This document shows, in pieces, positions 28,190-48,273 of a DNA stretch of 64,000 bases (position 1 is its first letter; the number at the start of each line of letters is the position of its first letter). Below the pieces are notes generated by a model. The model was not told the origin of the DNA, made no database searches, and was given only the letters and a program-made list of their open reading frames with translations. The stretch comes from Gemmatimonadota bacterium (GTDB lineage Bacteria; Gemmatimonadota; Gemmatimonadetes; Gemmatimonadales; GWC2-71-9), in contig JAOTVV010000001.1 of assembly GCA_029863245.1 (NCBI GenBank), positions 248,001 to 312,000 of the forward strand, read 5' to 3'. The translations under genes were made by a program, and so were the position numbers.

Positions 28190-29877
28190 TCCGCCACCCC
28201 CTCCCCGACACCAGCCCTCGCCCGATCTCGCGCCACCTGTTCCGGATCCCGCGGCAGCGTGATGGTGAACGTCGTTCCCCGTCCCCGGCCCGACTCCACC
28301 GCGATCGTGCCCTCGTGCCGCTGCACGATGCCATACACCACCGGCAGGCCGAGTCCCACGCCCTTCGCTTCGTTCTTCGTACTGAAGAACGGATCGAAGA
28401 TGTGGGGTTTCACCTCGTCCGGAATCCCAATCCCGCCGTCCGTGACGGACAGGCACACCGATCCCCGACTCGGCTCGTCAACGGTCCGCACGATGAGCGG
28501 TCCTCCGTCGGGCATGGCTTCGACCGCATTGATCAGCAAGGCGATGAGCGCTTGCACGACCTGCTCCCCGTCGGCCATGAACCGATCGTCCTGCAATGAC
28601 AGCTCCGTTGTCGTCGTGACACCACCGAGTTCCACATGATGTGCCACCAGCCTGAGCGCCCGATCGATGAGGGCGTGAAGATGCACGGACTGGAGCTCGG
28701 CGCTCCGGCCGCGCGCATACGTCAACAGATCCCGCACGATGTTCCCGCACCGCAAGGACTCCGACCGGATCAGCTCAAGCTGCTCGAGCATCCGCTCCCG
28801 CTCCTGCGACTCAGGCAGAGAGACGGCGATCCGCTTCGTGATGAGCTTGGCGTACGTCAGGATGCCCGACAACGGATTGTTCAGCTCGTGTGCCACCGTC
28901 GCCGCCATGCGTCCGAGCGATGCCGACCGCTCGACCTGAATGATCTGACGGTTCATCTGATCGAGCTCCGCAGTCTTCTCTTGCACGCGATCCTCGAGAG
29001 TCTGCGACCACGCGCGCAGCTCGGCATCGGCCGCCTTGAGGCTCCTGGCCATGTGGTTGAACGACATAGCCAAGGCCCCCAATTCGTCCGACCGCCGCAG
29101 CGCGATCTCGACGTCGAGATTGCCCCGCGCTAGCTCCTCAGTGCCCTGTCGCAGCCGGTGGGTCGGCCGGTGGACAGCCCGATATACGATCACCGCCACC
29201 AGGGCCATCGCGAGGAGAATGATCCCGATCGCCAGGGCGAGGACCTGACGGCGCGAGTGCGCGACAGCCGCATCGAGCGCTTCCATCGACATCTGCACGT
29301 CGAGCACGCCGAGGATCGACTGATCGGCCTGGTGGGCGTGGCACCGGGCGTTCCAGCATCCGTCCGCGTTCTGGATGGGATTGATCATGCCGAGCACGCG
29401 GTGCCCTTCCTCCTTCCGGTAGATCCGGGCCCGCTCTTTGGTGGGGACGGCCTCGAGCGGGTCTGCGGTCGCGTGGCAGACGTAGCAGGCCTCCGCCCGG
29501 AGGTCGACCGACTGGCCGATTTCACCCTCGTCACTGGAGAACTTGATCTCTCCCTGTTTGTTATAGATACGGATGGCCCCAACGCCGGGCTCGGCCGCGA
29601 GGAGCCGGATCATCGCGTACGTCCGCTCCCGCTCGTTTCGGAGCATGCTGGTATAGAGGCTCTGCTTGATGAGGTCGCTGGAGCGGTAAGCTTCGGCCTT
29701 GACTTCGTTCTCCAGCGTGCGCGACTGAAAATGTCGGCTCAATCCCACGTAGCCGCCGAAGAGCACGAAAATCTTGAGCGAGAGGACGAGGAAGAGCTTG
29801 AAGCTCAACGTCGACCCCAGGGACCGGAGCTTGTCCGGAATCGTCGTCGCCGGACCCCTGTTCACCCCAACGCCCAC
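28186..29877 (-). CDS. Sensor histidine kinase with periplasmic c-type haem motifs
   Basis: The protein is 563 residues from GTG 29877 (GGAAGG just upstream; GTG 29865 is possible). Membrane helix at about 27-46, periplasmic sensor domain 47-210, second helix 211-232, HAMP 233-285, coiled segment, phospho-acceptor His330 in VAHELNNPLSG, then HATPase with N-box LLINAVEAM, G1 TDGGIGIPDE and KGVGLGLPVVYGI. The sensor domain contains CYVCH (131-135) and CWNARCH (174-180, CX4CH), so it probably binds one or two covalent haems and senses redox state or a small ligand. It is coupled to the sigma54 response regulator. Confidence 0.93.
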   Translation of the reverse strand: MGVGVNRGPATTIPDKLRSLGSTLSFKLFLVLSLKIFVLFGGYVGLSRHFQSRTLENEVKAEAYRSSDLIKQSLYTSMLRNERERTYAMIRLLAAEPGVGAIRIYNKQGEIKFSSDEGEIGQSVDLRAEACYVCHATADPLEAVPTKERARIYRKEEGHRVLGMINPIQNADGCWNARCHAHQADQSILGVLDVQMSMEALDAAVAHSRRQVLALAIGIILLAMALVAVIVYRAVHRPTHRLRQGTEELARGNLDVEIALRRSDELGALAMSFNHMARSLKAADAELRAWSQTLEDRVQEKTAELDQMNRQIIQVERSASLGRMAATVAHELNNPLSGILTYAKLITKRIAVSLPESQERERMLEQLELIRSESLRCGNIVRDLLTYARGRSAELQSVHLHALIDRALRLVAHHVELGGVTTTTELSLQDDRFMADGEQVVQALIALLINAVEAMPDGGPLIVRTVDEPSRGSVCLSVTDGGIGIPDEVKPHIFDPFFSTKNEAKGVGLGLPVVYGIVQRHEGTIAVESGRGRGTTFTITLPRDPEQVARDRARAGVGEGVAE

Positions 29878-29920
29878 ACCGCCTTCCGCCGAGACCGCGA
29901 GCGCGTGGCACGCCGCGATT

Positions 29921-30715
29921 CTAAATGTGCGTCCGAAACATCTCCGACACCAGTCCTCGGTAACGCTCCCGGCCGAGGACCTGCTCCAGATCGGGGGTTG
30001 GCAACCCGCCGTCCTCCATGGTTGGGCCAACCGACGCGGCCTGCGGGACGGAGACCACGGCTTCGAGGTGGCGCTTCAGGAGTTGGATTTGCCCTAGGTA
30101 CCAGCGCACCGCATGCTCGCCGCGGTACAGGTCACCCACCTGGTCGGGATGCTCGTGAGGTCGAAGGGTGAACAGCCAGTCGTCGTTCGGCGAAGGCCCG
30201 GACCGCCACGCCTCGATCCGCGGGTTCACATCCAGGACCTCGCCCGCGATGGGATCGGTGAGCGGGATGCTCAGGCGGCGGCGCACGATCCAGCCACACG
30301 GCTCGCCACGCGTGAGCCAGACGCCGGTTCGCGGGAGGACCACCTCGTCGATGGGCTCGAGAACGCGGCGAGCGTGGTCGTCCAGGCCGACCCGAATGGT
30401 ATCGTCTGCTACGGACTGGAGCCACAGGTGGCCCGGGCTGTGGGGGCGATCGAGGTGGAGCGTGCAGCCGGTGGCCAGTCGCGAGAGGAACGCATTGACG
30501 GTGTCACCGGGCCGGGGATCGACCGGTGCGCCATGGGCCCGTGCACGCACCGCGTCGCGATCCATGCCGCCCTCCCCCCCGTGGCCGCCTTGGAGCGCGT
30601 GATACAACTCGCAGTCCTCGCACTCGTAGTTGCGATCACACGGCCGGTAGCTGAGCACGCCCGCCAGCACCCAGATGCAGGGGAGTTCGTCGTCTACTCG
30701 ATCGGAGGTCGTCAT
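29921..30715 (-). CDS. GcvH-fold protein with N-terminal Cys motif
   Basis: The protein is 264 residues from ATG 30715 (GGGGGT upstream); GTG 30751, overlapping the upstream stop, is an alternative. Near the N-terminus lies CIWVLAGVLSYRPCDRNYEC followed by EDCELYHAL, a four-Cys cluster that could bind metal. The middle resembles glycine-cleavage H protein: TGVWLTRGEPCGWIVRRRLSI, PIAGEVLDVN and DDWLFTLRP. The loop that should carry the lipoyl Lys (ESVKA) reads IVRRRLSIPL instead, with no Lys. It sits between another GcvH-like gene and the sensor kinase in the NrfD/Fe-S operon. Function unknown; a structural or signalling role in that complex is possible. Confidence 0.7.
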   Translation of the reverse strand: MTTSDRVDDELPCIWVLAGVLSYRPCDRNYECEDCELYHALQGGHGGEGGMDRDAVRARAHGAPVDPRPGDTVNAFLSRLATGCTLHLDRPHSPGHLWLQSVADDTIRVGLDDHARRVLEPIDEVVLPRTGVWLTRGEPCGWIVRRRLSIPLTDPIAGEVLDVNPRIEAWRSGPSPNDDWLFTLRPHEHPDQVGDLYRGEHAVRWYLGQIQLLKRHLEAVVSVPQAASVGPTMEDGGLPTPDLEQVLGRERYRGLVSEMFRTHI

Positions 30716-31450: not shown

Positions 31451-32719
31451 TCACGCCGCCGAACGAACCGGTTCCAACGACCCATCTGGGCGATCCGAAA
31501 GGCCCGGTATGACGTCCAGCACGGGCATCCGGTTCACGACCCATCGGAACACCCACAGCTCCGCACTGATGACACCGAGCGTCACCACCACTTCCATCCA
31601 GGTGGGCACGTAGCGCACCGCGGCGTACCACTTGAACGCGATCACGGAAACGTTGAGCCGGTTGAGGACGATCCCCACCAACGCGAGGACCGCAGCTACC
31701 TTGATCGCGGTCATGTGGCGTACCTGGCAGGCATACGCATACAGCACGGCCGGCACCGCTACGAAGCCCACGATCTCGAGCAGATACCATGCCCCCCACC
31801 CCGTGGACAGATACTCGCCTCGCTGGCCATGCACGAACACGAGGAGCTGGAGCACGAGGTACACGAACATCACGCCGGTGCAGATCTTGGCGAGTCCCAC
31901 CACGATGTCGTCGTGGGTGGCGTGCAACCGTCTACTCGCCCGGTGGGCGAACACCTTGTGAGTAATGCTGCCCTCGAAGATCACCATGGACAGGCCGGCG
32001 AAGATGCTCGAGACCACGAAGAGGATCGGGATGAACTCCGAATACCACAGGGGGTGGATCTTGGCCTTGGCCATGAGGTACAGCGCGCCCAGCCCTGACT
32101 GGTGGAGCAGCGACAGCGTAATCCCGAAGATCACCGCTCCCAACGTCATGGCGCCGAGGTATCGACGGATCCGGCGCCAGCCGAGCCATTCGGCCACGGC
32201 CGGCGAGAACTCGACGAACTCCGCCAGCATGTAGAGCAGGAAGTGCCAGGCGACCAGAAACAGCACCGAACTCACCCCGAACGAATTGCCGATGACGGGG
32301 TTGATCACGTTCCACGGACGGCCAAGGTCGAGCAACAACGCGCCGGCGTAAAACACATAAGCTAGAAATCCGTTCAGGACGGTTACCCGCACGATTGGGT
32401 GGTACTTCTCCATCCGGAGGATGTAGACCATAAACGTGAGCACGTAGGCGCCGCCCGCGAAGGCCACACCGGTGACCACATCGAACCCGATCCAGAGACC
32501 CCAGGGATAGTCCTGGGAGAGATTGGTGACCGCCCCCAGGCCCTTCGTGAAGCGGATCGTGAGCACCACGGCGCTCACCAGCATGATGGCGCCGGTGATC
32601 AGGTTGAACGGCGTGAGGATCTTGCCCTTCGGCTTCAGCTCCGCCAGCATGAACCGCACGAACCGCCGAAGCTCGGCGCCCACCGCCGGACGTCCCGTCG
32701 TCGCAACTCCCTCCGTCAT
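31451..32719 (-). CDS. NrfD/HybB-type quinone-interacting membrane subunit
   Basis: The protein is 422 residues with about ten membrane helices. It resembles HybB: PWGLWIGFDVVTGVAFAGGAYVLTF, ILRMEKYHPIVR, LDLGRPWNVINP, FLLYMLAEFVEFSP, LSLLHQSGLGALYLMA, KIHPLWYSEFIPILF and LNRLNVSVIAF. Such subunits hold no cofactors and pass electrons between quinol and the attached Fe-S protein. ATG overlaps the Fe-S gene stop as ATGA. No hydrogenase or molybdopterin catalytic subunit is encoded here, so the electron partner is unclear; the surrounding GcvH-like proteins are the only other candidates in the operon. Confidence 0.92.
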   Translation of the reverse strand: MTEGVATTGRPAVGAELRRFVRFMLAELKPKGKILTPFNLITGAIMLVSAVVLTIRFTKGLGAVTNLSQDYPWGLWIGFDVVTGVAFAGGAYVLTFMVYILRMEKYHPIVRVTVLNGFLAYVFYAGALLLDLGRPWNVINPVIGNSFGVSSVLFLVAWHFLLYMLAEFVEFSPAVAEWLGWRRIRRYLGAMTLGAVIFGITLSLLHQSGLGALYLMAKAKIHPLWYSEFIPILFVVSSIFAGLSMVIFEGSITHKVFAHRASRRLHATHDDIVVGLAKICTGVMFVYLVLQLLVFVHGQRGEYLSTGWGAWYLLEIVGFVAVPAVLYAYACQVRHMTAIKVAAVLALVGIVLNRLNVSVIAFKWYAAVRYVPTWMEVVVTLGVISAELWVFRWVVNRMPVLDVIPGLSDRPDGSLEPVRSAA

Positions 32720-33594
32720 GCCCCACCTCCGTCGTCATACTCCTCTTCACCCTCGTCGCGTGCCCGCGTCGCCCGGCTCAATGCCAGCAGGAACGGCGGC
32801 ACGAGAGTCAGCACGAGCGGAACCGCGTACAGGAACTCCTTGGTGAGCACCGGATACCCGGTGGTTCCGAGATCGGTGCGGAAGCCGAGCTGGTCGAACG
32901 GCACGGCACTCAGGTAGAGCCAGCTCGTGCCACCCACCTCATGCTCTCCATACACGTGCCGCACGTAGCGATCGGGCTCGCCGTACACGCGACTCCACGC
33001 GAGATCGATCAGCTCCGAGCGGCGACCGAAAGTGAGGCATCGCGCCGGGCAATTGGCCACACAGGCCGGCTCCTTCCCTTCCTGCACCTTGTCGAAACAC
33101 AGCTGACACTTCTGGATCTTCGGGACTGCGCTGTCGTATTCGAATTTCGGCACGTCGAAGGGACAGGACACCATGCAGTAGCGACACCCCATGCACTTGG
33201 ACTCCCGCCAGATAACGGGGCCCTCCGGAGTCTTGAGCATCGCCTTGGTGAGACAGGCCGAGGCGCACGCTGGTTGGAGGCAGTGCAGGCACTGGCGCTT
33301 CACCGAGACCGGTCCCCTGTCGGTCTCGAATCGGCACACGACAGACCACTGATCCGGTGACGTCTGCCTGGTCGCCGTCAGCTCTACGTCTGCTTCGGGC
33401 GTCGGGAGCCCGTTGGCGTCCGCACACGCGTATTCGCACATCCGGCATCCGAGACACGACGTGGTGTCGACGAGCACGCCCAAGCGATCCCGTTCCCCGA
33501 CCACGGCGCCGGGTTCCTCGGCCCGCAGCGCGGTCGCCGCAACGCTCGCCCCTCCGGCGGCGCAGAGTGTCTTGAGCAGATCTCTCCGCTTCAT
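32716..33594 (-). CDS. HybA-like 4x[4Fe-4S] electron-transfer protein with Tat signal
   Basis: The protein is 292 residues. The N-terminus RRDLLKTLCAAGGASVAATAL is a Tat-type signal. Cys clusters follow: CLGCRMCEYAC, CLHCLQPACASAC, CMGCRYCMVSCPF and CQLCFDKV with CVANCPARC, enough for four [4Fe-4S] clusters. A C-terminal membrane helix (FLYAVPLVLTLVPPFLLAL) is the HybA feature that distinguishes it from NrfC. It therefore sits on the periplasmic face and contacts the HybB-like subunit encoded next. Confidence 0.93.
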   Translation of the reverse strand: MKRRDLLKTLCAAGGASVAATALRAEEPGAVVGERDRLGVLVDTTSCLGCRMCEYACADANGLPTPEADVELTATRQTSPDQWSVVCRFETDRGPVSVKRQCLHCLQPACASACLTKAMLKTPEGPVIWRESKCMGCRYCMVSCPFDVPKFEYDSAVPKIQKCQLCFDKVQEGKEPACVANCPARCLTFGRRSELIDLAWSRVYGEPDRYVRHVYGEHEVGGTSWLYLSAVPFDQLGFRTDLGTTGYPVLTKEFLYAVPLVLTLVPPFLLALSRATRARDEGEEEYDDGGGA

Positions 33595-34753: not shown

Positions 34754-36772
34754 TTACGTCCCGCCGCTCAGGGGGGCCACCTCATGGCACAACTCGCACG
34801 CGACAGGAGCATTGTGGTCCACGCGGTCCACGTGACAAGTCGTGCAGACCTGGCGGGTCCACTTGGTCACCCCGGCGACCTTGTCCCCATGGCACTGGCT
34901 ACACTGCAGGTGCGCGAAGGAACGGTCGTGTTTGGCCTTCACGCCCTCGCGATGGCAGGACACACAGGTCGCCTCAGGCTGATGGTGGGCGTCATGACAC
35001 TGCGCGCAGTCGACGCTCGTCGCATCCATGGCCGGCGGCTGATGGCAGGCCCCGCACGGGAGACCCGCCGTGACATGCGGCGCGTGGGGGAACGCTCCCA
35101 CGGCGTGTTCGACCGGGGCGACCGGAGCGCCCTGCGGTCCCGCATGACAGGTCGAGCAGTCTTTGGGACGGGTGGCACTGTGGTGACAGCTGGAACACGC
35201 CGCACCCGACCCCACGACCGTCTTGCCGTGGTCCTCCATGGATGTGTGGCAGTTCGTGCAGGCGATCTCGGCCACGACCACGTGCCGCTCGTGATTGAAC
35301 GTCCGACCGGCGAAGGGCACCGTGCGGCGCTCGATGCCAAGGTGGCACTGGAGACACACGTTCTCGCCCACGTTCGGTCCGAGGTCGATGGTCGGCACCG
35401 CATACGGCAGCTTCCCGATCCGCACGGCCTCGCGCACGAGATCGAGGGTAGCGCGGAGCAGATTGTCCGCGTAGCCGATGTTGTGCGCACCCTTCCCCCG
35501 TTCGAGGAACCCGACGTTCTCCCGCGCGAGGCCGAGCAAGCTGTCGACTGGTCCTCGCGTCCCCTGGGCGCCCGATGCGGCGCTTCGCTCGGCCGCACGC
35601 ACGATCGGCTCGACAGCGCGCAGCTTCCGATCCATCTCGCGCTGCCACGCCGGGAGAATGTTCACGTACTCGATACCGTGGCATGAGAGGCACGAGGCTT
35701 CGCCGGCGAAACGGACCTGCTCGTGTCCGCGTATCTGCTTGGTGAGCTCGTGGCAGCCGGTGCAGGACACCCGGGCCTGGAACATCGCGCTCGGCTGGTT
35801 CTCGGTGCCGTGTCCGCCTATGCCGGCGTACAGCCGCTGCTGGGCCTCATGCACGCGGCGGTGACACAAGGCGCAGTCCAGATCGGCGGTCTGGCTCAAC
35901 GCCACCGAGCGATGCTCGATAGGCGTGTGGCACTGTGCACACTCGACGTTGTGCTCCGCGATGTGGGTCTCGTGAAGAAAGGTCGTGTTCTCGAATTCCT
36001 CGATCCGATCCGGCTCGTTGTGACAGCTGTAGCAGCGCGACACCTCGGCCGCGCCCGATCCGCTGACCACTTGCTCGTGGCACGACGTGCACGACACGAG
36101 ATCACGCACGTATTGTGGATGATCGACCACGAACCCCGCGGGCGACACGATGCGCGGCGGCGCCCGATGACAACTGATGCAGCCGGTCACGGGCTCGGCA
36201 CGCTGGGTGTCCTTGAAGTGGCAGAGGTTGCACGTTTGCGGCGTGACAGCCAGGTGGTTCCCCTGTACGATCTGCGAGTGACAGCTGGTGCAGCGGAGCT
36301 GCTTGCCGCGACGGAGCTCGCCCAGGTGCTGGGTGTGGTCGAAGCGCACGACGATCGTGTTGCGAGTCGGATTGGGGTTGTAGCTCACGACCCCTTCGAC
36401 CTTCCGTAGCGAATGACAGCCCGACCGCAGGCACGCCGCATCCTCGATTTCCGCCCATGGCTTGGTGCCGTACGCTCCGGTCACGTACTTCACGACCTGG
36501 TTTGCGGCCTGCATCTTCCCCATCGCCTCTGCCCGGATCCCCGGCGCGTAGTGGCACTTGATACACGGGACGTCGTTGTGGGACGAGGTGGCCCAGGAGT
36601 CGTAGTACGGCTGCATGTTGTGGCACTTCTTGCAGAAGCTCGGCTGGGCACTGTACTCGATGAACCCCACGGCCCCAACGGTCGACAGAATGACCGCCAG
36701 CACGCCGAGCTGGACTGCCAGCTTCAGCGGACGCGACAGCTTGCGAAACCGTCTGACCGCGCGCTCAACCAT
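34754..36772 (-). CDS. 22-haem cytochrome c with NapC/NirT-type membrane anchor
   Basis: The protein is 672 residues. One N-terminal membrane helix (LKLAVQLGVLAVILSTVGAVGF) leads into FCKKCHNMQPYYDSW, the hallmark first haem of NapC/NirT quinol dehydrogenases. I count 22 haem motifs: 21 CXXCH and one CX3CH (CLRSGCH). Haems 1-12 lie before, and 13-22 after, a haem-free helical stretch of about 110 residues. It is last in an operon with a degenerate Rieske protein, a PEWY-less cytochrome b and a 9-haem cytochrome; its start overlaps the 9-haem stop by eight bases. It probably carries electrons from that complex across the periplasm. Confidence 0.88.
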   Translation of the reverse strand: MVERAVRRFRKLSRPLKLAVQLGVLAVILSTVGAVGFIEYSAQPSFCKKCHNMQPYYDSWATSSHNDVPCIKCHYAPGIRAEAMGKMQAANQVVKYVTGAYGTKPWAEIEDAACLRSGCHSLRKVEGVVSYNPNPTRNTIVVRFDHTQHLGELRRGKQLRCTSCHSQIVQGNHLAVTPQTCNLCHFKDTQRAEPVTGCISCHRAPPRIVSPAGFVVDHPQYVRDLVSCTSCHEQVVSGSGAAEVSRCYSCHNEPDRIEEFENTTFLHETHIAEHNVECAQCHTPIEHRSVALSQTADLDCALCHRRVHEAQQRLYAGIGGHGTENQPSAMFQARVSCTGCHELTKQIRGHEQVRFAGEASCLSCHGIEYVNILPAWQREMDRKLRAVEPIVRAAERSAASGAQGTRGPVDSLLGLARENVGFLERGKGAHNIGYADNLLRATLDLVREAVRIGKLPYAVPTIDLGPNVGENVCLQCHLGIERRTVPFAGRTFNHERHVVVAEIACTNCHTSMEDHGKTVVGSGAACSSCHHSATRPKDCSTCHAGPQGAPVAPVEHAVGAFPHAPHVTAGLPCGACHQPPAMDATSVDCAQCHDAHHQPEATCVSCHREGVKAKHDRSFAHLQCSQCHGDKVAGVTKWTRQVCTTCHVDRVDHNAPVACELCHEVAPLSGGT

Positions 36773-38021
36773 GGCTCACCCTTCCGAGTTCTCGCAGCTT
36801 GAACGCCGCAAACGCGACACCCGAGAGCGTCAGGAACCACAGGGGCATCAGTAGCAGGTTGTGCTCCCAACGCTCTTCGGCGTAGGCCTCGGCCGTGGAG
36901 CGGACCACGGCGGCATTCGACCGCACCTCGCGCCCGAGATCTTCGAGCTGCTCGAGGTCGAGGGAATGCTGCACCTTGGCCAGCTGCTGGTACGCCGTGT
37001 AGGCGGCCCGATACCGGAAGCGCTCATCCGAGACGTCGCGGCCCGTCTTGACCATGCGCGCAATGGCCTCGGCGGCAAGCTCCAACTCCCCACGAGCGTG
37101 CAGCACTTGCTCTTCGATCTCCTGGCCGAGCGTGGCCATGCTGCTCTCGGCCGCATGACACGTGACGCACAGCTCGCTGATCTGCTCCGGTGGGAGCCGC
37201 TCGGTGCCGTGATTGGTGTGACACCCCAGGCATCCGGGGATGCGCCGCGTCAGCGACGGAGTGCCGTGCGGTCCCGCGTACAGTGCATCAGCCAGCAACA
37301 CGTGGCACTTGCCGCACACGTGGTCAATCTCGGTCACGTCGGGTGGCAGCGCCGCGTGCGAGCCGTGGCACCCGATGCACGTCGGGGCAGCGAAGTTCCG
37401 GTCCTCGAAGATCGCCTTGCCGTGGGCGCCAGCCATGAAGCGGGACAACTGATCCACCGAGAGCCCGTACTTCCGCATGAGGGCGGCATCATCGTGGCAC
37501 AGCCCGCAGGTCCGGGGAATGTTGGTCGGGTGCACCATGCTGCGCGCATCGTTCGCGGGACGGATCGTGTGCGCTTCGTGACAGTCGGTGCAGGTCGGAG
37601 CATCGGCGTTCCCGCGACCGAGGAGCAGCTCGCCGTGGCGACTGGTCCGGAACTCCGCCAACTGATCCGCGGCCAGTCCGTATTGCCGCATCTGGTTCGG
37701 GTCCGAGTGGCAGGAGGCACACAGCTCGGTCGTGGCCTGCTTCGACGGCGCGCCGAGGAACCGGCCGCGGTGGGCGGTCGCGACCTCGACCTGTGACGTG
37801 TCCCCCCCGTGGCAGGTGTGGCAGCGAATGCCGCGTTCCGCATGTGCGCCCTGGGCGAAGGCCCGACGCATGTCGGCATGGCACACGATGCAGCCGTAGG
37901 TCGAGGCATCCTGGTTGGACCGGGTTCCCTCCTGGGCGGCGAGCCTGGCGGCGTCGCTGCCAGCAACCGGCGAGAGAAGCACCAGGCCACCGATCGCCGC
38001 AATCAGCCCGCGTCGACTCAT
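36765..38021 (-). CDS. 9-haem cytochrome c with C-terminal membrane anchor (degenerate bc module)
   Basis: The protein is 418 residues from ATG 38021, which overlaps the cytochrome b stop as ATGA. The signal peptide is MSRRGLIAAIGGLVLLSPVA. Nine CXXCH motifs: CIVCH, CHTCH, CASCH, CTDCH, CGLCH, CIGCH, CGKCH, CLGCH, CVTCH. A long helical segment (residues about 290-385) and one membrane helix (LLLMPLWFLTLSGVAFAAF) follow. Motif order, spacing (for example SDPNQMRQYGL... and CxxCHxxHxI) and the C-terminal anchor are shared with the 9-haem protein at 43568-44827, which accompanies the canonical Rieske/cytochrome b pair. It occupies the cytochrome c1/f position. Confidence 0.87.
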   Translation of the reverse strand: MSRRGLIAAIGGLVLLSPVAGSDAARLAAQEGTRSNQDASTYGCIVCHADMRRAFAQGAHAERGIRCHTCHGGDTSQVEVATAHRGRFLGAPSKQATTELCASCHSDPNQMRQYGLAADQLAEFRTSRHGELLLGRGNADAPTCTDCHEAHTIRPANDARSMVHPTNIPRTCGLCHDDAALMRKYGLSVDQLSRFMAGAHGKAIFEDRNFAAPTCIGCHGSHAALPPDVTEIDHVCGKCHVLLADALYAGPHGTPSLTRRIPGCLGCHTNHGTERLPPEQISELCVTCHAAESSMATLGQEIEEQVLHARGELELAAEAIARMVKTGRDVSDERFRYRAAYTAYQQLAKVQHSLDLEQLEDLGREVRSNAAVVRSTAEAYAEERWEHNLLLMPLWFLTLSGVAFAAFKLRELGRVSHG

Positions 38022-39346
38022 CGGACGCCCCTTTCCCGCTGGGCCTCGGGCGCCGGAACCGGCTCGGCGCGATTGCCGTCCGGCACCGCGAGCGACGGCG
38101 GGCTCGGCACAACCTGCTCGGCCACTACGCCCGTCCCCAGGGACTCCGACGGCGTCACCGACCCAATGGCTCGCCCCGCGATCCACAGGGCGACATACCC
38201 GATGAAGAACGTGAGGCCCAACACCGCCACCACAGGACGCTCACGGAGCCTCCGAGCGGGGCCACGGTCGAGGAGGGGCACCAGGATGAGGCTGACGCCC
38301 AACAGGGTGAACAGCGTGAATCCCCACGTGCCCGCCAGCCGGATCAACGCCAACGAGACATCCACCGGCACCCAGGTCGACACCAACTCGCCCGGCACGG
38401 CGTACGGATCGGCCGGATCGGCAAGCCCCCGGGGAAACAGGATCGCGAGCGTGATGGCGATCGCGATGGTCACGACGGCGACCATGAACGACCGGAGCAG
38501 GTGGTTGGGGTAGAAGGGGACCCCTTCCTTCGCTTGCTCATCCGGCGAGTACCGGCCGCTGCGCCGCTGCCGCCGCCGCTCGCGCTCGACGTTCATGGGT
38601 GGTGCGATACCGCGTCGCCGAACCAGCGTAAAATGGTACCCAAGGAGTGCGAAGGCGATCCACGGAAGCACGATCACGTGCAGCGCGAAGAACCGGCTCA
38701 ATGTCGCGCCCGAGGGGATGACGTCACCCATGATCGCCTCGGCAAACCTCCGCCCGACGAGCGGAAACCGAGCGATAGCCGTCATCACCTCCGTGAGCGT
38801 CCAGTACGACCACTGGTCCCACGGCAGCAGATAACCCGTTCCCCCGAAGAGGAGCACGACGAACAGGAGCAGGATGCCGATGAGCCAGTTGGTCTCCCGC
38901 GGCGGCTTGTACGCGGCTTCGAAGAACACCCGAGCCATGTGCATGAGCAACACGATCACGATGAGATTGGCCGACCAGTGGTGCAGGTCACGCACCAGCC
39001 AGCCGAACGGCGTCTCCGACACGATGTGCTGGATGCTCGGATACGCTTCCTGCACCGACGGGCGATAGAAGATCGCCAGCAGGACTCCCGTGATGACGAG
39101 AACGACGAACAGCAGATACGTGATGCTGCCAAGCGCGTGTCGCCAGCCGACATGAGGTGCCAATCGGTAGCGGAGCGCCTTGCGCCATGCCTGGTCGATG
39201 CTGAGGCTGCGATCGATCGGTCCGTAGAGAAGACCGATGAACCGAGCCATACCTAGGAGGCTCGCGTCGGTACTGGCTTTGATATCGTCCCACACGCCGA
39301 CGATGGCACGTCGGAGGGCAGCGAGCGTCAGTCGAATCACCGTCAC
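38018..39346 (-). CDS. Cytochrome b of bc1/b6f type lacking the PEWY motif
   Basis: The protein is 442 residues with about eight membrane helices. The bis-His pairs for both b haems are intact: His122/His136 (14 apart) in LHHWSANLIVIVLLMH and His223/His238 (15 apart, b6-type) in LHVIVLPWIAFALLGYH. GTGYLLPWDQWSYW matches the Qo-side cd region. The position equivalent to PEWY, essential for quinol oxidation at Qo, reads STWV (323-326) in GELVSTWVPVDVSLAL. An additional Arg-rich loop (about 253-268) and a Pro-rich tail are present. Its partner Rieske protein also lacks its cluster. The overlap with the 9-haem gene is ATGA. Confidence 0.9.
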   Translation of the reverse strand: MTVIRLTLAALRRAIVGVWDDIKASTDASLLGMARFIGLLYGPIDRSLSIDQAWRKALRYRLAPHVGWRHALGSITYLLFVVLVITGVLLAIFYRPSVQEAYPSIQHIVSETPFGWLVRDLHHWSANLIVIVLLMHMARVFFEAAYKPPRETNWLIGILLLFVVLLFGGTGYLLPWDQWSYWTLTEVMTAIARFPLVGRRFAEAIMGDVIPSGATLSRFFALHVIVLPWIAFALLGYHFTLVRRRGIAPPMNVERERRRQRRSGRYSPDEQAKEGVPFYPNHLLRSFMVAVVTIAIAITLAILFPRGLADPADPYAVPGELVSTWVPVDVSLALIRLAGTWGFTLFTLLGVSLILVPLLDRGPARRLRERPVVAVLGLTFFIGYVALWIAGRAIGSVTPSESLGTGVVAEQVVPSPPSLAVPDGNRAEPVPAPEAQRERGVR

Positions 39347-39792
39347 GACCTCCCGACGTAGGCGATGCCGTCCCGTAGAAACACGGGATAGCGTTGGAGT
39401 GCCCTCGTCGAGATCCCGGCGACAACGCTCCCGTCGACGTCATACACGACGTAGCTGCAGGGCGACACGATGCGCGAGGACTCCTCCTCCCAGCGCAAAA
39501 GACACCCGTCGCCGGGCGACGTGGCATCGACGGCCGCAAAGCGATCCTGCCCGAGGCGAACGACCAGGATGGCCCGATCGCCCCAGCGGACGAGCCGGCT
39601 CGCACCGATGGGGATGTCGCGTTCCTGCGCGACGCGGATCACCGGCTGGAGCTCGGGAATCTCCAGATGGTCACCTGGCGAGACGTACAGCGCGGTGCTG
39701 AGTGCAACAGCCGCGATGATCAATGTGATCACCGCCGCGAGGAGGAGATCGTTGAGTCCCCATCCTGGTTCACGGACTTCCACATGGGTCAT
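39343..39792 (-). CDS. Rieske-fold protein without cluster ligands
   Basis: The protein is 149 residues with one membrane helix (LLLAAVITLIIAAVALSTALYV). Aligned without gaps to the canonical Rieske protein at 43053-43535 (offset ten residues), box 1 CTHLGC becomes SPGDGC (92-97) and box 2 CACH becomes SPCS (110-113). All four [2Fe-2S] ligands (Cys, His, Cys, His) are replaced by Ser92, Gly94, Ser110 and Ser113, while both disulfide Cys (97 and 112) are kept. Flanking Rieske features persist (YDVDGSVVAG for [10 protein letters not shown]). It overlaps the PEWY-less cytochrome b gene by four bases. It is predicted to be a structural subunit without redox function. A reading as an unrelated fold is unlikely given the spacing. 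Confidence 0.85.
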   Translation of the reverse strand: MTHVEVREPGWGLNDLLLAAVITLIIAAVALSTALYVSPGDHLEIPELQPVIRVAQERDIPIGASRLVRWGDRAILVVRLGQDRFAAVDATSPGDGCLLRWEEESSRIVSPCSYVVYDVDGSVVAGISTRALQRYPVFLRDGIAYVGRS

Positions 39793-40088: not shown

Positions 40089-41756
40089 CTACCGTCTGGT
40101 GAGGCCAGCCGGCGGCGCTGCCTGAATCGCGAGATCCACCGTCGCCGGTGCCGTCACGCCGTACTCGTCCTGCAGCGCCCTGATGGACTCCACGAGCAGC
40201 GCCTCGAGGAGGAACGGGTTGTGCACGCCCTCGGCGCTCGAGTAGTGCGCCGTGTTCGACCCGCCCTGCGTCGTGCATGTGTCGGTCGACGCGCAGCTCA
40301 GCTGTCCCGACACCTTGAAGCTTCTCCAGTTATCACGATTGTGCGTGGACGCGAGCTGCGCGTTCCAGATGGCCCCCTCCGCCGGGGTCTCCACGGTGTC
40401 GTACATGTTGATCTCGTTCAGGTTGTTCGCGGCAATGGCCTGCGCCAGCACTTGCGGCAGCAGCCCGCCGTCGGTCGTCTCCATCACGGAGTCGTTGTCC
40501 ATGTCGGCCCACAGCGCGTCCGTAAGGAGGTCCATGCGTCGCCGCACCACCTCGAACGCCGTCCGCGCGGCATCTGCGTGGCCATGGCACCCTGAGGCGG
40601 CGCAGCCGTTGAAGTACCGCTCGGTGACCACGCAGTCCGTTGCACCGCTCGGCAAGCCCGTGGTCGGGCTGATGCAAGGAATCGCCTTGAACGTGTGTCC
40701 CGTGCTGACGACCCTATTACCCTGCCCGTCCGTGCCTTCGTACGCCAGAATGTGGCAGGACGCGCACAAGCGAGGGTTCGCGGTAGCGTGCGAGCCCAAC
40801 ACCGGCCCTGTATACGGCCAGTTCGGTGGGTGCCATCCAGCCTCTTCGGCGATCACGATCAGGCCTTGCGCCGCGTGTGGGCCGCGCCGCGTCGAGGAGC
40901 CTTCCTCGGGCTCTCCCTCCCGGCGGTGGCAATGCACGCACAATTGTTCCTCCGACACCTCGCCCAGAGGAGCCCGGAGTTGCCCCTCGTGCGTGGCGTC
41001 GTGCGGATCGTGGCAGACTGCGCAGAACGCCGTCGGCTGGGCCGCGTCGGGCGTACCCGCCTCAACATAGGTCCCGAGCGGGCCTCCAGCCTGTCCCGAT
41101 TCGCGGGGATCGAATCCCTCGAAGTTGACCCGGAGCGCCTCGCGGCCCTCGTGGCAGTTCTTGCAGGGGTCCCGGTTGTAGTACGACAAGTACGTGTGAC
41201 CGGCTAAGCCGTGCCTCGACGAGGCCCATTCCTCGAGATAGGGATAGTCAGGGCCCGAGTGGCATTCGCCACAGCCGTTCTTAAGGGCCGTGTCGACCGC
41301 GATGGACGCCAGCGGCTGGAATGCCTCGGGACCCTCCACATGCTGGAGCCCGGCGCCGTGACAGCTCTCGCACTGCACATCGAAGTACGCCGTGTCCGCC
41401 ACTAGGTTGAAGCCGGCCAGCGCGTCCAGCGCGTTCCCCATCTCGTTGACCGTGTGGCAAGGCCGGCAGGTGTCCTCCGCCTGCCCGGACGCCTCCAGGT
41501 CCTCGTAGGCGCTGGCGTGCTTGGTTTGCAGCCAGGATGTCTGCTTTCCCACATGGCAGCCGCCACACGTCGTGAGCTTCTCGGACGCCGTGTAGTACCC
41601 GAGGAAGCCGTTCACCGCATCCGGCGGGACGTTGAACCGAGGCCGCTCGACCTCGACAAACTTGATTACCTCATCCGTGCACCCCACCCCGGCCAGCAAG
41701 CCGATCAACCCAACAGCCAGCAGCAGGCGCCTTCCTGACAGATATCGAGCAGTCAC
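40089..41756 (-). CDS. 9-haem c-type cytochrome lipoprotein
   Basis: The protein is 555 residues with a GTG start (GGGGG a few bases upstream) and a lipoprotein signal with Cys in GVGC. Nine haem motifs: CGGCH, CRPCH, CESCH, CGECH, CKNCH, CAVCH, CVHCH, CASCH and a CX4CH (CAASGCH). The layout (CGGCHVGKQTSWLQTKHA, CRPCHT, CESCHGAG, CGECHSG) resembles multihaem cytochromes of the cytochrome c554/hydroxylamine-oxidoreductase-like group, but no catalytic signature is evident. The last 150 residues are haem-free. It lies between the two bc-type operons and ends at a strong terminator, so it may be transcribed separately from a promoter in 41757-41953, where a TTGACA occurs. Confidence 0.83.
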   Translation of the reverse strand: MTARYLSGRRLLLAVGLIGLLAGVGCTDEVIKFVEVERPRFNVPPDAVNGFLGYYTASEKLTTCGGCHVGKQTSWLQTKHASAYEDLEASGQAEDTCRPCHTVNEMGNALDALAGFNLVADTAYFDVQCESCHGAGLQHVEGPEAFQPLASIAVDTALKNGCGECHSGPDYPYLEEWASSRHGLAGHTYLSYYNRDPCKNCHEGREALRVNFEGFDPRESGQAGGPLGTYVEAGTPDAAQPTAFCAVCHDPHDATHEGQLRAPLGEVSEEQLCVHCHRREGEPEEGSSTRRGPHAAQGLIVIAEEAGWHPPNWPYTGPVLGSHATANPRLCASCHILAYEGTDGQGNRVVSTGHTFKAIPCISPTTGLPSGATDCVVTERYFNGCAASGCHGHADAARTAFEVVRRRMDLLTDALWADMDNDSVMETTDGGLLPQVLAQAIAANNLNEINMYDTVETPAEGAIWNAQLASTHNRDNWRSFKVSGQLSCASTDTCTTQGGSNTAHYSSAEGVHNPFLLEALLVESIRALQDEYGVTAPATVDLAIQAAPPAGLTRR

Positions 41757-41953: not shown

Positions 41954-43051
41954 CTAGGTGGTGGGACTCGCGGTGTACCCCAGGTAGGTCAGGATGATGA
42001 TGTAGATGATCGCCGCGATCACGAGCCACGTGATGAGTGGAGTCCCTTCGCCTCGGTCGCTCCTCTTGTCCAAGACCGGAACGATCACGAGCAGCAGCCC
42101 CGCCACCGCGAAGGCGAAGATGCCTACGAGCTCGCCTTCGAGCACCAGGATGTGGGCCGGAAGGTATTTCAGGGTCTGGAACATGAACATGAAATACCAC
42201 TCGGGTTTGATGCCCACCGGAGCCGGGGCAAACTGGTCGGCTTTCACGCCGAGCTCCGCCGGGAAAAACGCGGCGAGCGCGGCGAGCACGGCGAGCGCCG
42301 TGAGCCAGCCCACGAGGTCGCGGAGCAGGAAATTGGGAAAGAACGGCATCGTCCCCCCCGCACCCCCCTGCCGCTCGACGTCGAGCGGCACGCTCATGCC
42401 GTGTTTCTGCACCATGAAGAGGTGCACTCCGAGCAGGGCGACGGATGTGGCCGGAAGCACCGCGATGTGGAAAGCGTAGAACCGCGTGAGCGTGGCGCCG
42501 GTGACGTCCTCCCCGCCCCGCGCCACCCGCAGCAGGAACTCCCCGGCGAGGGGCACGACACCGACGATCTCGGTCCCGACGCGCGTCGCGAAATACGACA
42601 GCTCGTTCCATGGCAGGAGGTAGCCGGTGAACCCGAAGGCCAGCGCCAGGCCCAAGAGCCCTGCCCCGCTGAACCACGTGACCTCCCTCGGCGCGCGATA
42701 GGCTCGCAGCCAGAGCACGCTGAACATGTGGATGAACAGCGTGAAGATCATGAGGTTGGCAGCCCAATGGTGGATGGAGCGAACCAGCCAGCCAAATTCC
42801 ACTTCGGCCATCAAGAACTGCACCGATTCGTAGGCCTCATCGGAGCTTGGACGATAGTAGAAGAGGAGGAGGATGCCCGTCGCGATCTGGACGACGAAGA
42901 GAAACAGCGTCATGCCCCCGAGGTAGTACCAGATGGTGTGCCGATGGACGGGGACGTCCTTCTTCTTCGCCAGCGCACCCATCGCCGCCAGCCCGAGCCG
43001 GTCGTCGAGCCACTCGTAGAGCTCCTTGAGCCACCCCCGCTCAGCGACCAT
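41954..43051 (-). CDS. Cytochrome b of bc/b6f type with PEWY
   Basis: The protein is 365 residues, a single chain covering the b6 and subunit IV regions. Haem ligands His94/His108 and His195/His210 (15 apart, b6-like) are present, [22 protein letters not shown] matches the Qo cd region, and PEWY is intact at 283-286 in [12 protein letters not shown]. It should oxidise quinol at Qo and pass one electron to the adjacent canonical Rieske protein. It follows the Rieske gene by one base. It is the intact paralogue of the PEWY-less protein at 38018-39346. Confidence 0.94.
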
Positions 43052-43052
43052 C

Positions 43053-43535
43053 TCAGCTCCCTCTGCTCACGACGATCTGGTCCTCCCGCACGTTGACCGT
43101 GTACACCTCGAGCGGCTCCGGCGGCGGTCCCTGCAGCACGCGGCCGTTGAGATCGAAGTGCCCGTTGTGACAGGCACACCAGACGTGGTGGATGTCCGGT
43201 CGGTACTGGACAATGCATCCGAGATGGGTGCACGCAGCCGACATGGCACGGAGCTCGCCGGTGGTGGTTCGCACGAGAATGCCCGGACGGCTGCCGAACT
43301 TGAAGATCTTCCCCTCGTTGGGCGCCACCTCGTCCGGAGTGAACGGGAGCGTGACCGAGGTTGCCGCCGATTCGCCGGCCGCGGGCGGCACGAGATAGCG
43401 GCCGGCTGGATACACCACGGCAAGCAGGAGGCCGCCGGCGCTGGTGCTCAAGAGCCACGTCGTCAACGTCCGGCTCATCAGCCAGTCGATGAACCTCCGG
43501 CGGGACTGGCCAGAAGCCGATCCGGACTGCTCCAT
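43053..43535 (-). CDS. Rieske [2Fe-2S] protein, canonical
   Basis: The protein is 160 residues from ATG 43535 (AGGTGA upstream). An [11 protein letters not shown]-terminus and membrane helix ([15 protein letters not shown]) give a Tat-type signal anchor. The cluster-binding boxes are complete: CTHLGC (102-107) and CACH (120-123) followed by [14 protein letters not shown]. It accepts electrons from quinol at the Qo site of the cytochrome b encoded next and passes them to a cytochrome c1/f equivalent, here most likely the 9-haem protein encoded upstream. Confidence 0.95.
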
Positions 43536-43567: not shown

Positions 43568-44827
43568 CTAGCGCTCGGCCTGTCGGATCTTGATCACGAG
43601 CCCAACGATGAGCGCCAGGATGATCGTCACGGACACCCCGAGCCCGGTTCGGCGAAAGCGGAGATCGCCGAGGGCCTCGACACCCTTCTGATGGGCGGCG
43701 GCCGTCACGTCCAGCCCCTCGTCGACGTACGCCGCGACGCGCGCGGGGTTGAATGTGTGCACGGCAGCCCGAGCCTGGACCAGAGCGTTCAGCGCACCCT
43801 GAAGCTCGAACCGAGCCTGGCTGACCTCCATGCCGGCATGCTCCGCTCGCAGGAGCAGGGAGTCGGCGCCGCCATAGGCGGCGCGCAGGGAATCGAGCCG
43901 CCCTCGCATGGTCGTCGCCGTGGTGCCTCCCGCGTCCTGGGCCACGTGACACTGACCGCACACGGCCCCCTCGCCGAGACCCAAGAGCTCCGGTCTGGCG
44001 CGAAGGATCTCGTGGTTGCCGTGACAGGTGGCGCATCCAGGATTGCCAAGCAGCGCAAACGTCTTCGCATGGCGGCTCTGGGCGAAGTGGTCTGCAATCA
44101 CTGAATGGCATTGACCGCACACGTTGCCAACCCACGAGAAGCCGGGAGGCGCCGCCCCGTGGTTGCCGTGGCAGTCGTTGCAGGTCGGCGCCGACAGGTC
44201 TCCTCCGTCGGTCATCATGGCCCAGTGCACGCTGCGTCGATACCTCTCGAGCTGATTGGTAGGGATCTGGTAGCCCGCCATGTGCTCGGCGTCCGCGTGA
44301 CACGCGCCGCAGGTCTCGGCGACGTTGAGCGGGTGCACACTCGATGCCGCGTCAGAGGGGGGCTTGATGGCGTGGGCCGGATGGCAGCTGGTGCAGACGG
44401 CGACGGCGGTGTCACCGAGCTCCGCGAGGCGTCGTCCGTGAACCGACGTGGAATACTCGGCCACCTGGTCCACGCGGAGCGACGGATTGAACTGCCGCAT
44501 GAACGCGGCGTCCGAGTGGCAGCGCCCGCAGAAGGTGGCCACCTGCAGCTTTCCTGGACGGCCCACGAAGCCCTTCGCGGGGTCCATGCCTTCGAATCCG
44601 GCCAGCGTCCGGTCACCACCGTGGCAATCGGCACAGCCGAGACCCCGCGCCGCGTGAATGTCGCCGGTGAACGCCCGGGCCGGCCCCCCGAGACGCTCGT
44701 CATCGAGGACGCTGTGGCAGACCCTGCAGTTGTCGACCTCCGCCTCCTGCTCCTGGGCGCGAACGGCTCCAGTCCACGTGACCGCCACCACCACGAGGAT
44801 GAGGCCTCGGTTCCACGTCCACTGCAT
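43568..44827 (-). CDS. 9-haem cytochrome c with C-terminal membrane anchor (canonical bc module)
   Basis: The protein is 419 residues with a signal peptide (cleavage near VRAQE) and a GGGGAGGG ribosome-binding site. Nine CXXCH motifs: CRVCH, CADCH, CGRCH, CTSCH, CGACH, CNDCH, CGQCH, CATCH, CGQCH. A helical segment (about 300-385) and one membrane helix (LGVSVTIILALIVGLVIKI) follow. It is the first gene of the 9-haem/Rieske/cytochrome b operon, replacing the usual mono-haem cytochrome c1 or f. It is similar along its length to the protein at 36765-38021. Confidence 0.88.
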   Translation of the reverse strand: MQWTWNRGLILVVVAVTWTGAVRAQEQEAEVDNCRVCHSVLDDERLGGPARAFTGDIHAARGLGCADCHGGDRTLAGFEGMDPAKGFVGRPGKLQVATFCGRCHSDAAFMRQFNPSLRVDQVAEYSTSVHGRRLAELGDTAVAVCTSCHPAHAIKPPSDAASSVHPLNVAETCGACHADAEHMAGYQIPTNQLERYRRSVHWAMMTDGGDLSAPTCNDCHGNHGAAPPGFSWVGNVCGQCHSVIADHFAQSRHAKTFALLGNPGCATCHGNHEILRARPELLGLGEGAVCGQCHVAQDAGGTTATTMRGRLDSLRAAYGGADSLLLRAEHAGMEVSQARFELQGALNALVQARAAVHTFNPARVAAYVDEGLDVTAAAHQKGVEALGDLRFRRTGLGVSVTIILALIVGLVIKIRQAER

Positions 44828-45513: not shown

Positions 45514-46737
45514 TCATCCTTGGCTCGGCAGCCCTGCGGCCGGCCCCTCGGCTGCTAGTGCCGCCTCCCCCGGTGCCTCATCCATCCACGGCGGCAGGAC
45601 CTTGACCAGAGCCCACAGGATCACGAAGGGAAGTAACAGCAGAGCAACCGACATGGCGAGCCCCTCGATCCCGAACAGCTGGACCTTGTAGACCGTCAGG
45701 CCGCGCAGGCTCTTCGAGAAGAGCTGGCCGCCAATCACCACGTTCCATCGGATGCTGAAGATGCCGATCTGGATCAGAACGGCGGCGACCAGGTACGTCA
45801 GGTGCTTCAGCTCGGGCGGCAGGCGCACGAACCCACCTTTGCGCAGTCCGGGAGACACCAAGGCGAGCATGATGAGCGGAATGATGGTCCCCATCAGGAA
45901 TTGCAGCACGATCAGGCTGAGAAACAGGCGGCTCTCCACCATCTGCGACAAGATCTGGATCGACTCCTCGGCTTCGTACAGCCGGTGAATGAAATCCAGT
46001 GCCTCGAGCGAGAAGTCCACCACGATAGCGTAGAAAAGAAACTGGGCCAGTTTGTCCATGCACGCCACGTCCACTTTCCGCCAGCGGAACATGGTGGTCA
46101 GCATGTAGATGACCAGCACGAGCGCAATGCCGGACACGATTGCCGAGAACAGGAACACCACCGGCATCAGCACGCTACTCCACCACGGATTGGCCTTGAT
46201 CGATCCGAAGATGAAGCCGACGTACCCGTGCAGAAGAAACGCCGATGGAATACCCACGATCGTGATGACCCGACCCGCTCGGTCGTCGAACCGCAGGGAC
46301 CGTTCCGAGAGGTCGGTGGCGCCCAGGGTGAGCGCATAGCGAATCCACCGCATCACGCCGCGATCGTTGCGGGCCCACAGGACCAGGTCCTTCCGATAGT
46401 CGAACCAGACCTCCAGCAACAACACGACCGCCAGGTACCACGCGTAGACGAAGCCGAACATGGCCATCGCCGACTTGCGGTTGGGCGTGAGGAAGATCTC
46501 GTGCGACCGCAAGGGATGTCCGAGATGCGCGAGCAGTGGCAGTGGGGCCACCAGGAGAAACGCCAAGGCCGTGAGCAACGCGAGCCGATAGGTCGGCTGC
46601 ACTTCCCTTACATTGAAGACCCGCTCGAGCGACGCGAGAATGAAGGCGCCGGCAACCAACCCGGTGAGGTAGGGATACAGGACGATCAGGAGGCCCCACT
46701 GGAGCTCGAACTCGTTGGGATAGATGTACCCCGGCAC
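45514..46737 (-). CDS. NrfD-type quinone-interacting membrane subunit
   Basis: The protein is 407 residues with about nine membrane helices. It begins YIYPNEFELQWGLLIVLYPYLTGLVAGAFILASLERVF and includes PLPLLAHLGHPLRSHEIFLTPN, SAMAMFGFVYAWYLAVV, GFIFGSIKANPWWSSVLMPVVFL and FSLEALDFIHRLY, the NrfD/PsrC pattern. It is only distantly like the HybB-type protein at 31451-32719. It follows the Fe-S subunit gene by one base and would exchange electrons between quinol and that subunit. Confidence 0.9.
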   Translation of the reverse strand: MPGYIYPNEFELQWGLLIVLYPYLTGLVAGAFILASLERVFNVREVQPTYRLALLTALAFLLVAPLPLLAHLGHPLRSHEIFLTPNRKSAMAMFGFVYAWYLAVVLLLEVWFDYRKDLVLWARNDRGVMRWIRYALTLGATDLSERSLRFDDRAGRVITIVGIPSAFLLHGYVGFIFGSIKANPWWSSVLMPVVFLFSAIVSGIALVLVIYMLTTMFRWRKVDVACMDKLAQFLFYAIVVDFSLEALDFIHRLYEAEESIQILSQMVESRLFLSLIVLQFLMGTIIPLIMLALVSPGLRKGGFVRLPPELKHLTYLVAAVLIQIGIFSIRWNVVIGGQLFSKSLRGLTVYKVQLFGIEGLAMSVALLLLPFVILWALVKVLPPWMDEAPGEAALAAEGPAAGLPSQG

Positions 46738-46738
46738 G

Positions 46739-47551
46739 CTACCTCACTTCCCCGTCCAGGTTCGCGTACAGCACCTTGGGCGCCGTGTTGAGGTGCGGCT
46801 TCAGCACCTGGATCTGATTGAACCGCATGAACCGCGCGAGGGGTGTGGCTCGTCCCCGCACCTCGCCGAAGATCCGGGCGCCCGTCGGACACACCTCGAC
46901 GCAGGCAGGTACCTGGCCCCGCACAAGGCGATGGTAGCAGAACGTGCATTTCGCGGCGACGTGGGTCTCGGGATGGAGGTACCGCGCCCCGTACGGGCAG
47001 GCCTGAATGCAATACCGGCACCCAATGCAGTACTCATCGTCGACGAGCACGACGCCGTCTTCGGTCATGAATGTGGCCCCGACGGGACAGACCTGGACAC
47101 ACGGTGGGTTGTCGCAGTGGTTGCACAGCTTCGGTACGAAAAAGGTCCGCTCCACGTTAGCCTGTGTCAGCGGTGGGAAGCCGTCCAGTCCGCCGTTGGG
47201 GCTGTCGACCTGCACTGCGTCGTCCTCGGTGATGACGTAGCGCTCGATCCACGTGTTGAAGAAGTGCGGTTCGGCCGGCACGTCGTTCTCCGTCTTGCAG
47301 GCCGCGACACAGCGCGCGCACCCAATGCACCGTCTGGGATCCACCCCCATGCCGTAGTAGTGCTCGCTCGCATCATAGGCACCGTCGGGCTGCTGGCCGA
47401 ACGCCGCGGGCAGCCGCACGACACCGAGAAGAAACGGGGCGGCGGCGCACGCGCCCGCCGCGGCCTCGCCCAAAAACCGCCGTCGATCGAGTACAGGACT
47501 CGCTGGCGGTTCGCTCCGGGAGCGCGTGGGATCGAATCGGGCGGTACTCAC
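46739..47551 (-). CDS. NrfC-like 4x[4Fe-4S] protein with Tat signal
   Basis: The protein is 270 residues from GTG 47551, which overlaps the octahaem stop as GTGA. Tat signal LDRRRFLGEAAAGACAAAP. Four ferredoxin-type clusters: CIGCARCVAACKTEN, CNHCDNPPCVQVCPVGA, CIGCRYCIQACPYGA and CTFCYHRL with CVEVCPTGA. It has no C-terminal membrane helix, unlike the HybA-like protein elsewhere in the window. It should bridge the NrfD subunit and the octahaem cytochrome on the periplasmic side. Confidence 0.93.
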   Translation of the reverse strand: MSTARFDPTRSRSEPPASPVLDRRRFLGEAAAGACAAAPFLLGVVRLPAAFGQQPDGAYDASEHYYGMGVDPRRCIGCARCVAACKTENDVPAEPHFFNTWIERYVITEDDAVQVDSPNGGLDGFPPLTQANVERTFFVPKLCNHCDNPPCVQVCPVGATFMTEDGVVLVDDEYCIGCRYCIQACPYGARYLHPETHVAAKCTFCYHRLVRGQVPACVEVCPTGARIFGEVRGRATPLARFMRFNQIQVLKPHLNTAPKVLYANLDGEVR

Positions 47552-48273
47552 GGCGCCTCCGGGTGGTGAGGGTAGTGACACTGCCAGCACGTGTACGGCT
47601 GACCGTGCGTCTGCAGATCGATCTGGGGAATGGCCGCACGCGGATCGCCGATCGCGTGACACGCCCCGCAGAAGCTCCGGTCCGTCGGCTTCGAGGGCCG
47701 CGCCGACCGCGGATTCGACTTGTGTGTCACCGGCGCTGCATGGCAGACCTCACATTCCAGGCTGGCATGGTGTGACACCAACTTCTGCCGAGCGATCTCG
47801 CCATGGCACGCCGCACACGACTCGGGCACCACCGGGGGCTCCGGGGCGTGGGGGTCGTGGCAGTCCTTGCAGGGCGTAAGAGGATTGTGCACCACCGGAT
47901 CGATCTGCGGGAATCCCGTGGGGCGCGACGGATTGAAGGCGTGACACAGGATGCACTGGTCCCGACCGCGCGGAATGGACGGCTTGACCTCCATCGGGGC
48001 GGCAATGTGGGCGGCGGCCGGTCCATGGCACACCTCGCAGCGCACGCCCTTGTGGTTGGACGCCAGCCTCGCCTCTTGGATCGGACTGTGGCAGAGGGTG
48101 CACTGCTGATGCCCGGCGTACTTCATGGGACGAGCGGCTATCGAGTCGACGGCCGCGGCCCGATAGTGCCCGATGTCGCCGAACGTGTCGGGCACGAGGT
48201 ACCAACGGGCAATCACCATGGCGAGCAGCGCCACGGCAAAGACAAAGACCAAGCGAGGAACTTGTTGGGGCAT
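47548..48273 (-). CDS. Membrane-anchored octahaem c-type cytochrome
   Basis: The protein is 241 residues from ATG 48273. An N-terminal membrane helix (LVFVFAVALLAMVIARWYLV) anchors it. Eight CXXCH motifs: CTLCH, CEVCH, CILCH, CKDCH, CAACH, CEVCH, CGACH, CWQCH. Many are followed by His-rich turns (CKDCHDPHAP, CWQCHYPHHP). It is the first gene of the octahaem/NrfC/NrfD operon, a composition related to the cytochrome-NrfCD complexes that link quinol to periplasmic cytochromes. Longer upstream starts lack a ribosome-binding site and would disrupt the signal anchor. Confidence 0.87.
   Translation of the reverse strand: MPQQVPRLVFVFAVALLAMVIARWYLVPDTFGDIGHYRAAAVDSIAARPMKYAGHQQCTLCHSPIQEARLASNHKGVRCEVCHGPAAAHIAAPMEVKPSIPRGRDQCILCHAFNPSRPTGFPQIDPVVHNPLTPCKDCHDPHAPEPPVVPESCAACHGEIARQKLVSHHASLECEVCHAAPVTHKSNPRSARPSKPTDRSFCGACHAIGDPRAAIPQIDLQTHGQPYTCWQCHYPHHPEAP

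Follow-up and report, generated by a model that had tools for sequence, protein, structure and literature searches.

A conserved operon of Gemmatimonadota encodes a Rieske-fold protein, named here RIE0, in which all four [2Fe-2S] ligands are replaced, next to a bc-type cytochrome b, named b0, without the PEWY motif; two large multiheme cytochromes c complete the four-gene unit. We consider it somewhat probable that this operon specifies a derived relative of the Rieske/cytochrome b complex which no longer bifurcates; its Rieske fold would be structural and the complex would form a quinone-linked multiheme wire. Quinol bifurcation is defined by two parts, the Rieske cluster and PEWY, and to our knowledge the known bc-type complexes retain both of them. 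Here the cluster ligands and the PEWY Glu appear to have been lost together in a conserved complex, with the b-heme ligands still present and the Rieske fold kept. This would constitute a natural experiment separating the structural from the redox role of a Rieske protein, and it suggests that in Gemmatimonadota a Q-cycle enzyme may become no more than a wire across the membrane, serving electron transfer that is multiheme and possibly extracellular. No earlier description of a cluster-less Rieske protein in a conserved bc-like complex was found in the literature searched, the scope of which left out most subscription journals.

The window analysed in this study is a stretch of 64,000 nucleotides from a Gemmatimonadota bacterium (assembly GCA_029863245.1, contig JAOTVV010000001.1, positions 248,001 to 312,000 of the forward strand), and positions are counted from its first letter. 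It contains the following features:

34754-36772, minus strand: 21-heme cytochrome c with an NrfH/NapC-like N-terminus (transmembrane helix, CxxCHxM)
36765-38024, minus strand: 9-heme cytochrome c of the RIE0 operon, with a signal peptide and a C-terminal transmembrane helix
38018-39346, minus strand: b0, the partner cytochrome b, 442 residues, its start overlapping the RIE0 stop
39343-39792, minus strand: RIE0, predicted cluster-less Rieske-fold subunit, ATG start, 149 residues
40020-40052, minus strand: hairpin resembling a terminator (13-bp stem, tail rich in T), located between RIE0 and the 8-heme gene upstream of it
40089-41756, minus strand: 8-heme putative lipoprotein cytochrome, upstream of RIE0
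41954-43051, minus strand: canonical cytochrome b with PEWY, comparison paralogue
43053-43535, minus strand: canonical Rieske protein (CTHLGC...CACH), comparison paralogue
43568-44827, minus strand: 9-heme cytochrome c of the canonical complex

RIE0 is composed of an N-terminal transmembrane helix (residues 13-37) and a Rieske head covering about residues 51-147. A preliminary description had singled out this open reading frame as a Rieske protein that kept its disulfide and lost every cluster ligand, with the same box spacing as a canonical Rieske protein 3.3 kb away, and all of these points are borne out. The two boxes read SPGDGC...SPCS in RIE0 and CTHLGC...CACH in the canonical protein, which lies upstream on the same strand; the ligands Cys, His, Cys and His are replaced by Ser, Gly, Ser and Ser (positions 92, 94, 110 and 113), the disulfide residues Cys97 and Cys112 are kept, and the distance between the boxes is 12 residues in both proteins. 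By known ligand rules, a [2Fe-2S] cluster would not be expected in RIE0.

Judged from its sequence, RIE0 is certainly homologous to Rieske proteins, the similarity being far above chance. A phmmer search of the PDB returned 8hn2, the Rieske protein of Chlorobaculum, at 6e-11, and the RIE0 family profile found the same entry at 2.8e-15. The structure prediction called for by the preliminary description gave a Rieske fold and not an unrelated one: the AlphaFold2 model, computed from a 32-sequence alignment, has a mean pLDDT of 90.9 and superposes on solved Rieske domains, Foldseek matching it to 8hn2 (E 2.5e-8), to 5cxm (target TM 0.89) and also to NirD (3c0d). The Pfam Rieske models remain under their cut-offs (PF13806, 19.6 of 27 bits; PF00355, 14.5 of 20.3), so that automatic annotation would miss RIE0; annotation pipelines would either overlook the protein or name it an Fe-S protein.

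Orthologues were first searched in 60 related genomes, yielding eight full sequences and a partial one at about 50% identity. Scanning about 85,000 species genomes with b0 then gave 34 loci, 32 of which are of the cluster-less type and titled Gemmatimonadota or uncultured bacterium; the two others, from planctomycetes, keep PEWY and are not members. In all, 36 distinct orthologues were found, each of them in Gemmatimonadota. Judged by score, about 27 of the 395 genomes scanned across the phylum are likely carriers, and they belong to six families, at a threshold which also lets in canonical Rieske proteins (these score 42-64 bits).

Within the 36 members, the Cys1 column contains Ser (29), Ala (6) or Gly (1), the His1 column never contains His, the Cys2 column is Ser throughout, and the His2 column is His only once. 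All four ligands are gone in 35 members. The remaining one, in locus L071 (5498-5941, plus strand), retains this single His (SPCH), and its partner cytochrome b is also without PEWY. The second Cys of each box, forming a disulfide pair whose bond is predicted from sequence, is present in all 36 proteins, and every ligand is intact in the 14 canonical Gemmatimonadota Rieske proteins that the family profile also recovered. A new Asp beside the lost His1 position is invariant (36/36), although nearby pocket positions vary.

In the tree, cluster-less and canonical Rieske proteins stand on opposite sides of one branch (support 99/98), a branching that fits a single loss of the ligands. We reject an origin of RIE0 by recent duplication of its canonical neighbour, given the long branches between the two groups and the extent of the degenerate clade across six families. 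A frameshift or sequencing error was likewise rejected, since 35 further distinct sequences share the pattern; no orthologue with intact ligands and no frame change restoring them was seen in the family. Furthermore, Nei-Gojobori dN/dS values of RIE0 lie between 0.03 and 0.20 in 12 close pairs, rough estimates, as synonymous sites are almost saturated in part of the pairs, none of the values approaching 1. The earlier proposal that the protein is maintained under selection and not decaying is therefore upheld, and the ligand loss is common to its orthologues, save for the single His mentioned above.

The Rieske proteins of bc1 and b6f complexes are folded with their cofactor before export, and carry a twin-arginine motif ahead of the transmembrane anchor. 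Such a Tat-type motif is found in 14/14 canonical Rieske proteins (SRRRFI in that of the window) versus 1/36 cluster-less RIE0 proteins, counts which are not phylogenetically independent. Such a loss would be natural in a protein that receives no cofactor before it is exported; it is independent of the ligand columns and points the same way as the loss of the ligands.

The partner b0 is homologous across cytochrome b6 and subunit IV (PF00033, PF13631; PDB 2zt9), with which it has in common the four heme His and the PWDQ and SGATLSRF segments, and from which it differs by the absence of PEWY and the shortening of the helix that follows. In the b0 of the window the four heme-b His are kept, and PEWY is replaced by STWV followed by an 8-residue deletion. 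All four His are present in 35/35 b0 homologues, which predicts the two bis-His hemes of a bc1/b6f Q-cycle enzyme, whereas PEWY is missing and a redox-active Rieske protein is not expected; the PEWY Glu occurs in none of the 35 homologues versus 13/13 canonical cytochromes b. The site mostly reads [ST][TS]W[VI], with Trp in 33/35, and much of the cd region is gone. A block-by-block comparison of the residues that canonical cytochromes b of Gemmatimonadota conserve shows that b0 retains them at 0.13 on average in the block of PEWY and the following helix, and at 0.34-0.76 in the other blocks. The SGATLSRF segment, which aligns with TGATLTRF of the canonical proteins, is almost wholly invariant. 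As for the Rieske proteins, b0 and PEWY-bearing proteins split on one branch (SH-aLRT 99).

RIE0 and b0 are adjacent in all 32 loci scored. Of the 29 loci whose downstream sequence reaches 3 kb or more, 26 contain the 9-heme gene and 26 the 21-heme gene. The 9-heme cytochrome of the RIE0 operon shares 33% identity with that of the canonical side (3.9e-63); the two being paralogous, both complexes probably derive from one 9-heme/Rieske/cytochrome b unit. In three loci from another class of the phylum (L078, L079, L080), a ligand-intact canonical Rieske/cytochrome b pair is clustered with multiheme cytochromes of 9 to 24 hemes, and it is possible that these clusters resemble the ancestral arrangement.

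The N-terminus of the 21-heme cytochrome resembles NrfH (2j7a at 2.8e-6) and matches TIGR03153 at 5.8e-12, with 45.8 of 134.2 bits, so the curated cut-off is not reached. The transmembrane helix is present, and CxxCHxM and Lys86 are invariant in the 21-heme N-termini; the structure model of the protein is poor (pLDDT 47.8). In the protein of the window, a Gln aligns with the Asp of the NrfH 'GARD' segment. The Lys/Asp pair of NrfH forms its quinol site, and thus the NrfH-like domain of the 21-heme protein may not oxidise quinol. Homologues of the 8-heme cytochrome lie directly upstream of RIE0 in many loci, not all, and its participation in the complex is uncertain. Tandem copies of this putative lipoprotein gene are found at that place in L037, L039 and L040.

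The preliminary description had suggested a rewired bc-like complex, and this fits a b0 without PEWY but with its heme ligands, and an operon with two large multiheme cytochromes. The four proteins may form one complex, bind quinone and transfer electrons. RIE0 would be its structural and docking part, holding the multiheme cytochromes to the periplasmic face of b0 at the place where the mobile Rieske head normally is. The Q-cycle would be lost and the complex would no longer bifurcate; electrons would travel one at a time along a chain made of a quinone site, the two b-hemes and a multiheme wire in the periplasm, the b-hemes probably linking the quinone pool to a periplasmic conduit of roughly 30 hemes. 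Quinone would be handled by the site on the cytoplasmic side of b0, by the NrfH-like domain, or by both of them, and the PEWY-less Qo pocket of b0 could bind quinol in another way; electrons could flow in the direction of either quinol oxidation or quinone reduction. According to the passages of PMC3119413 and PMC12219900 that cite Graham and Trumpower (1991), the yeast Rieske protein without its cluster still assembles into the bc1 complex. This is a precedent for RIE0 as a structural subunit, the role that we infer for it.

Bifurcation might instead persist without an Fe-S centre, a c-type heme of the 9- or 21-heme subunit accepting one electron at high potential in a remodelled Qo site, heme bL taking the second electron and the empty Rieske fold acting as a dock. 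The complete set of b-heme ligands in b0 and the almost invariant SGATLSRF segment would agree with such an enzyme, and the NrfH-like domain with its invariant CxxCHxM could stand at the periplasmic face of the membrane. However, the PEWY Glu, the helix behind it and much of the cd region, which are known parts of the Qo site, are lost, and we know of no c-heme that replaces the Rieske cluster at this site, so that we hold this explanation to be unlikely.

No more probable, in our opinion, is that RIE0 and b0 form a catalytically dead half, either in a heterodimer with the nearby canonical complex or as its regulator. The bc complexes are dimers, and canonical genes are found within about 10 kb of RIE0/b0 in the window and in genomes G028, G185, G225, G324 and G372. 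They are far from RIE0/b0 in other genomes such as G203, however, and b0 has diverged far from the canonical cytochrome b and has 9-heme and 21-heme partners of its own; moreover, a dead half would not need the fully conserved heme ligands that b0 possesses. Still less weight can be given to a re-use of the pocket for another metal or ligand, with Ser, Asp and Ser as the new site. Although the new Asp by His1 and the Ser at Cys2 are invariant, 7 of the 36 proteins have Ala or Gly at Cys1, both His positions vary freely, and the export signal typical of cofactor proteins is gone. Finally, Pfam scores under the cut-offs might suggest that RIE0 is a pseudogene in decay, or an error of sequencing or assembly. 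The chance of this is negligible: the same losses recur in 36 distinct orthologues, their reading frames are open, dN/dS lies far below 1, and the operon is conserved.

The favoured reading, a non-bifurcating offshoot with a structural Rieske fold, can be set beside known systems. With the Rieske subunit of bc1/b6f complexes (PF00355; 8hn2, 5cxm), RIE0 has in common the transmembrane anchor, the fold, the disulfide Cys pair and the neighbouring cytochrome b, whereas its family is marked by the loss of all four ligands of the cluster and of the Tat-type motif. NirD (3c0d, 4aiv), the small subunit of assimilatory nitrite reductase and soluble partner of the siroheme protein NirB, is not known to have the cluster ligands and, like RIE0, is a Rieske fold without cluster. 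It was matched by fold only and not found by sequence search; unlike NirD, RIE0 is membrane-anchored, paired with a cytochrome b and closest to bc-type Rieske proteins.

The closest described arrangement is the ext cluster of Geobacter, where a Rieske protein, a b-type cytochrome and large multiheme cytochromes occur together: it contains the Rieske protein ExtO, described as an Fe-S protein, the cytochrome b ExtP and 5-, 10- and 12-heme cytochromes (PMC5877670, PMC2825233). The best NCBIfam match of b0 is indeed ExtP (NF040969), at 208.7 bits under a cut-off of 290 bits. No 21-heme NrfH-like subunit is described for the ext cluster; the ExtO family NF040968 had no match in 150 Gemmatimonadota genomes nor in the controls.

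CymA/NapC, CbcL and ImcH are non-bifurcating quinol dehydrogenases of multiheme chains, and CbcL pairs two b-hemes with nine c-hemes, its b part being HydC/FdnI-like and not bc-type (PMC6295460). Their presumed role, from the quinone pool to a multiheme c chain, is the same as that proposed for the RIE0/b0 complex, and the 21-heme N-terminus is itself NrfH/NapC-like; none of them is described with a Rieske-fold subunit, unlike the RIE0 complex. By analogy, the RIE0/b0 complex may work like CymA, CbcL or ImcH without belonging to them.

In its own genome, the RIE0 operon lies 2-4 kb from the canonical Rieske/cytochrome b pair, and two heme-copper oxidase genes are also present, so that ordinary respiration need not rely on the RIE0/b0 complex. 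The window as a whole is a dense respiratory hub. Adjoining the respiratory cluster, a sensor histidine kinase (28186-30030, minus strand) has CYVCH and CWNARCH motifs in its sensor region; it may bind c-type heme, and it could be a redox sensor of the cluster. Three GcvH-like lipoyl-domain proteins (PF01597; 29921-30751, 30744-31439 and 33641-34315, minus strand), beside which no glycine cleavage genes were seen, are interleaved with an NrfD/4Fe-4S module (31451-33594) whose NrfD has HmcC as its nearest match (396 bits, under the cut-off). A second module of NrfD and a 4Fe-4S ferredoxin (45514-47662, minus strand) lies immediately upstream of the canonical pair of Rieske and cytochrome b genes.
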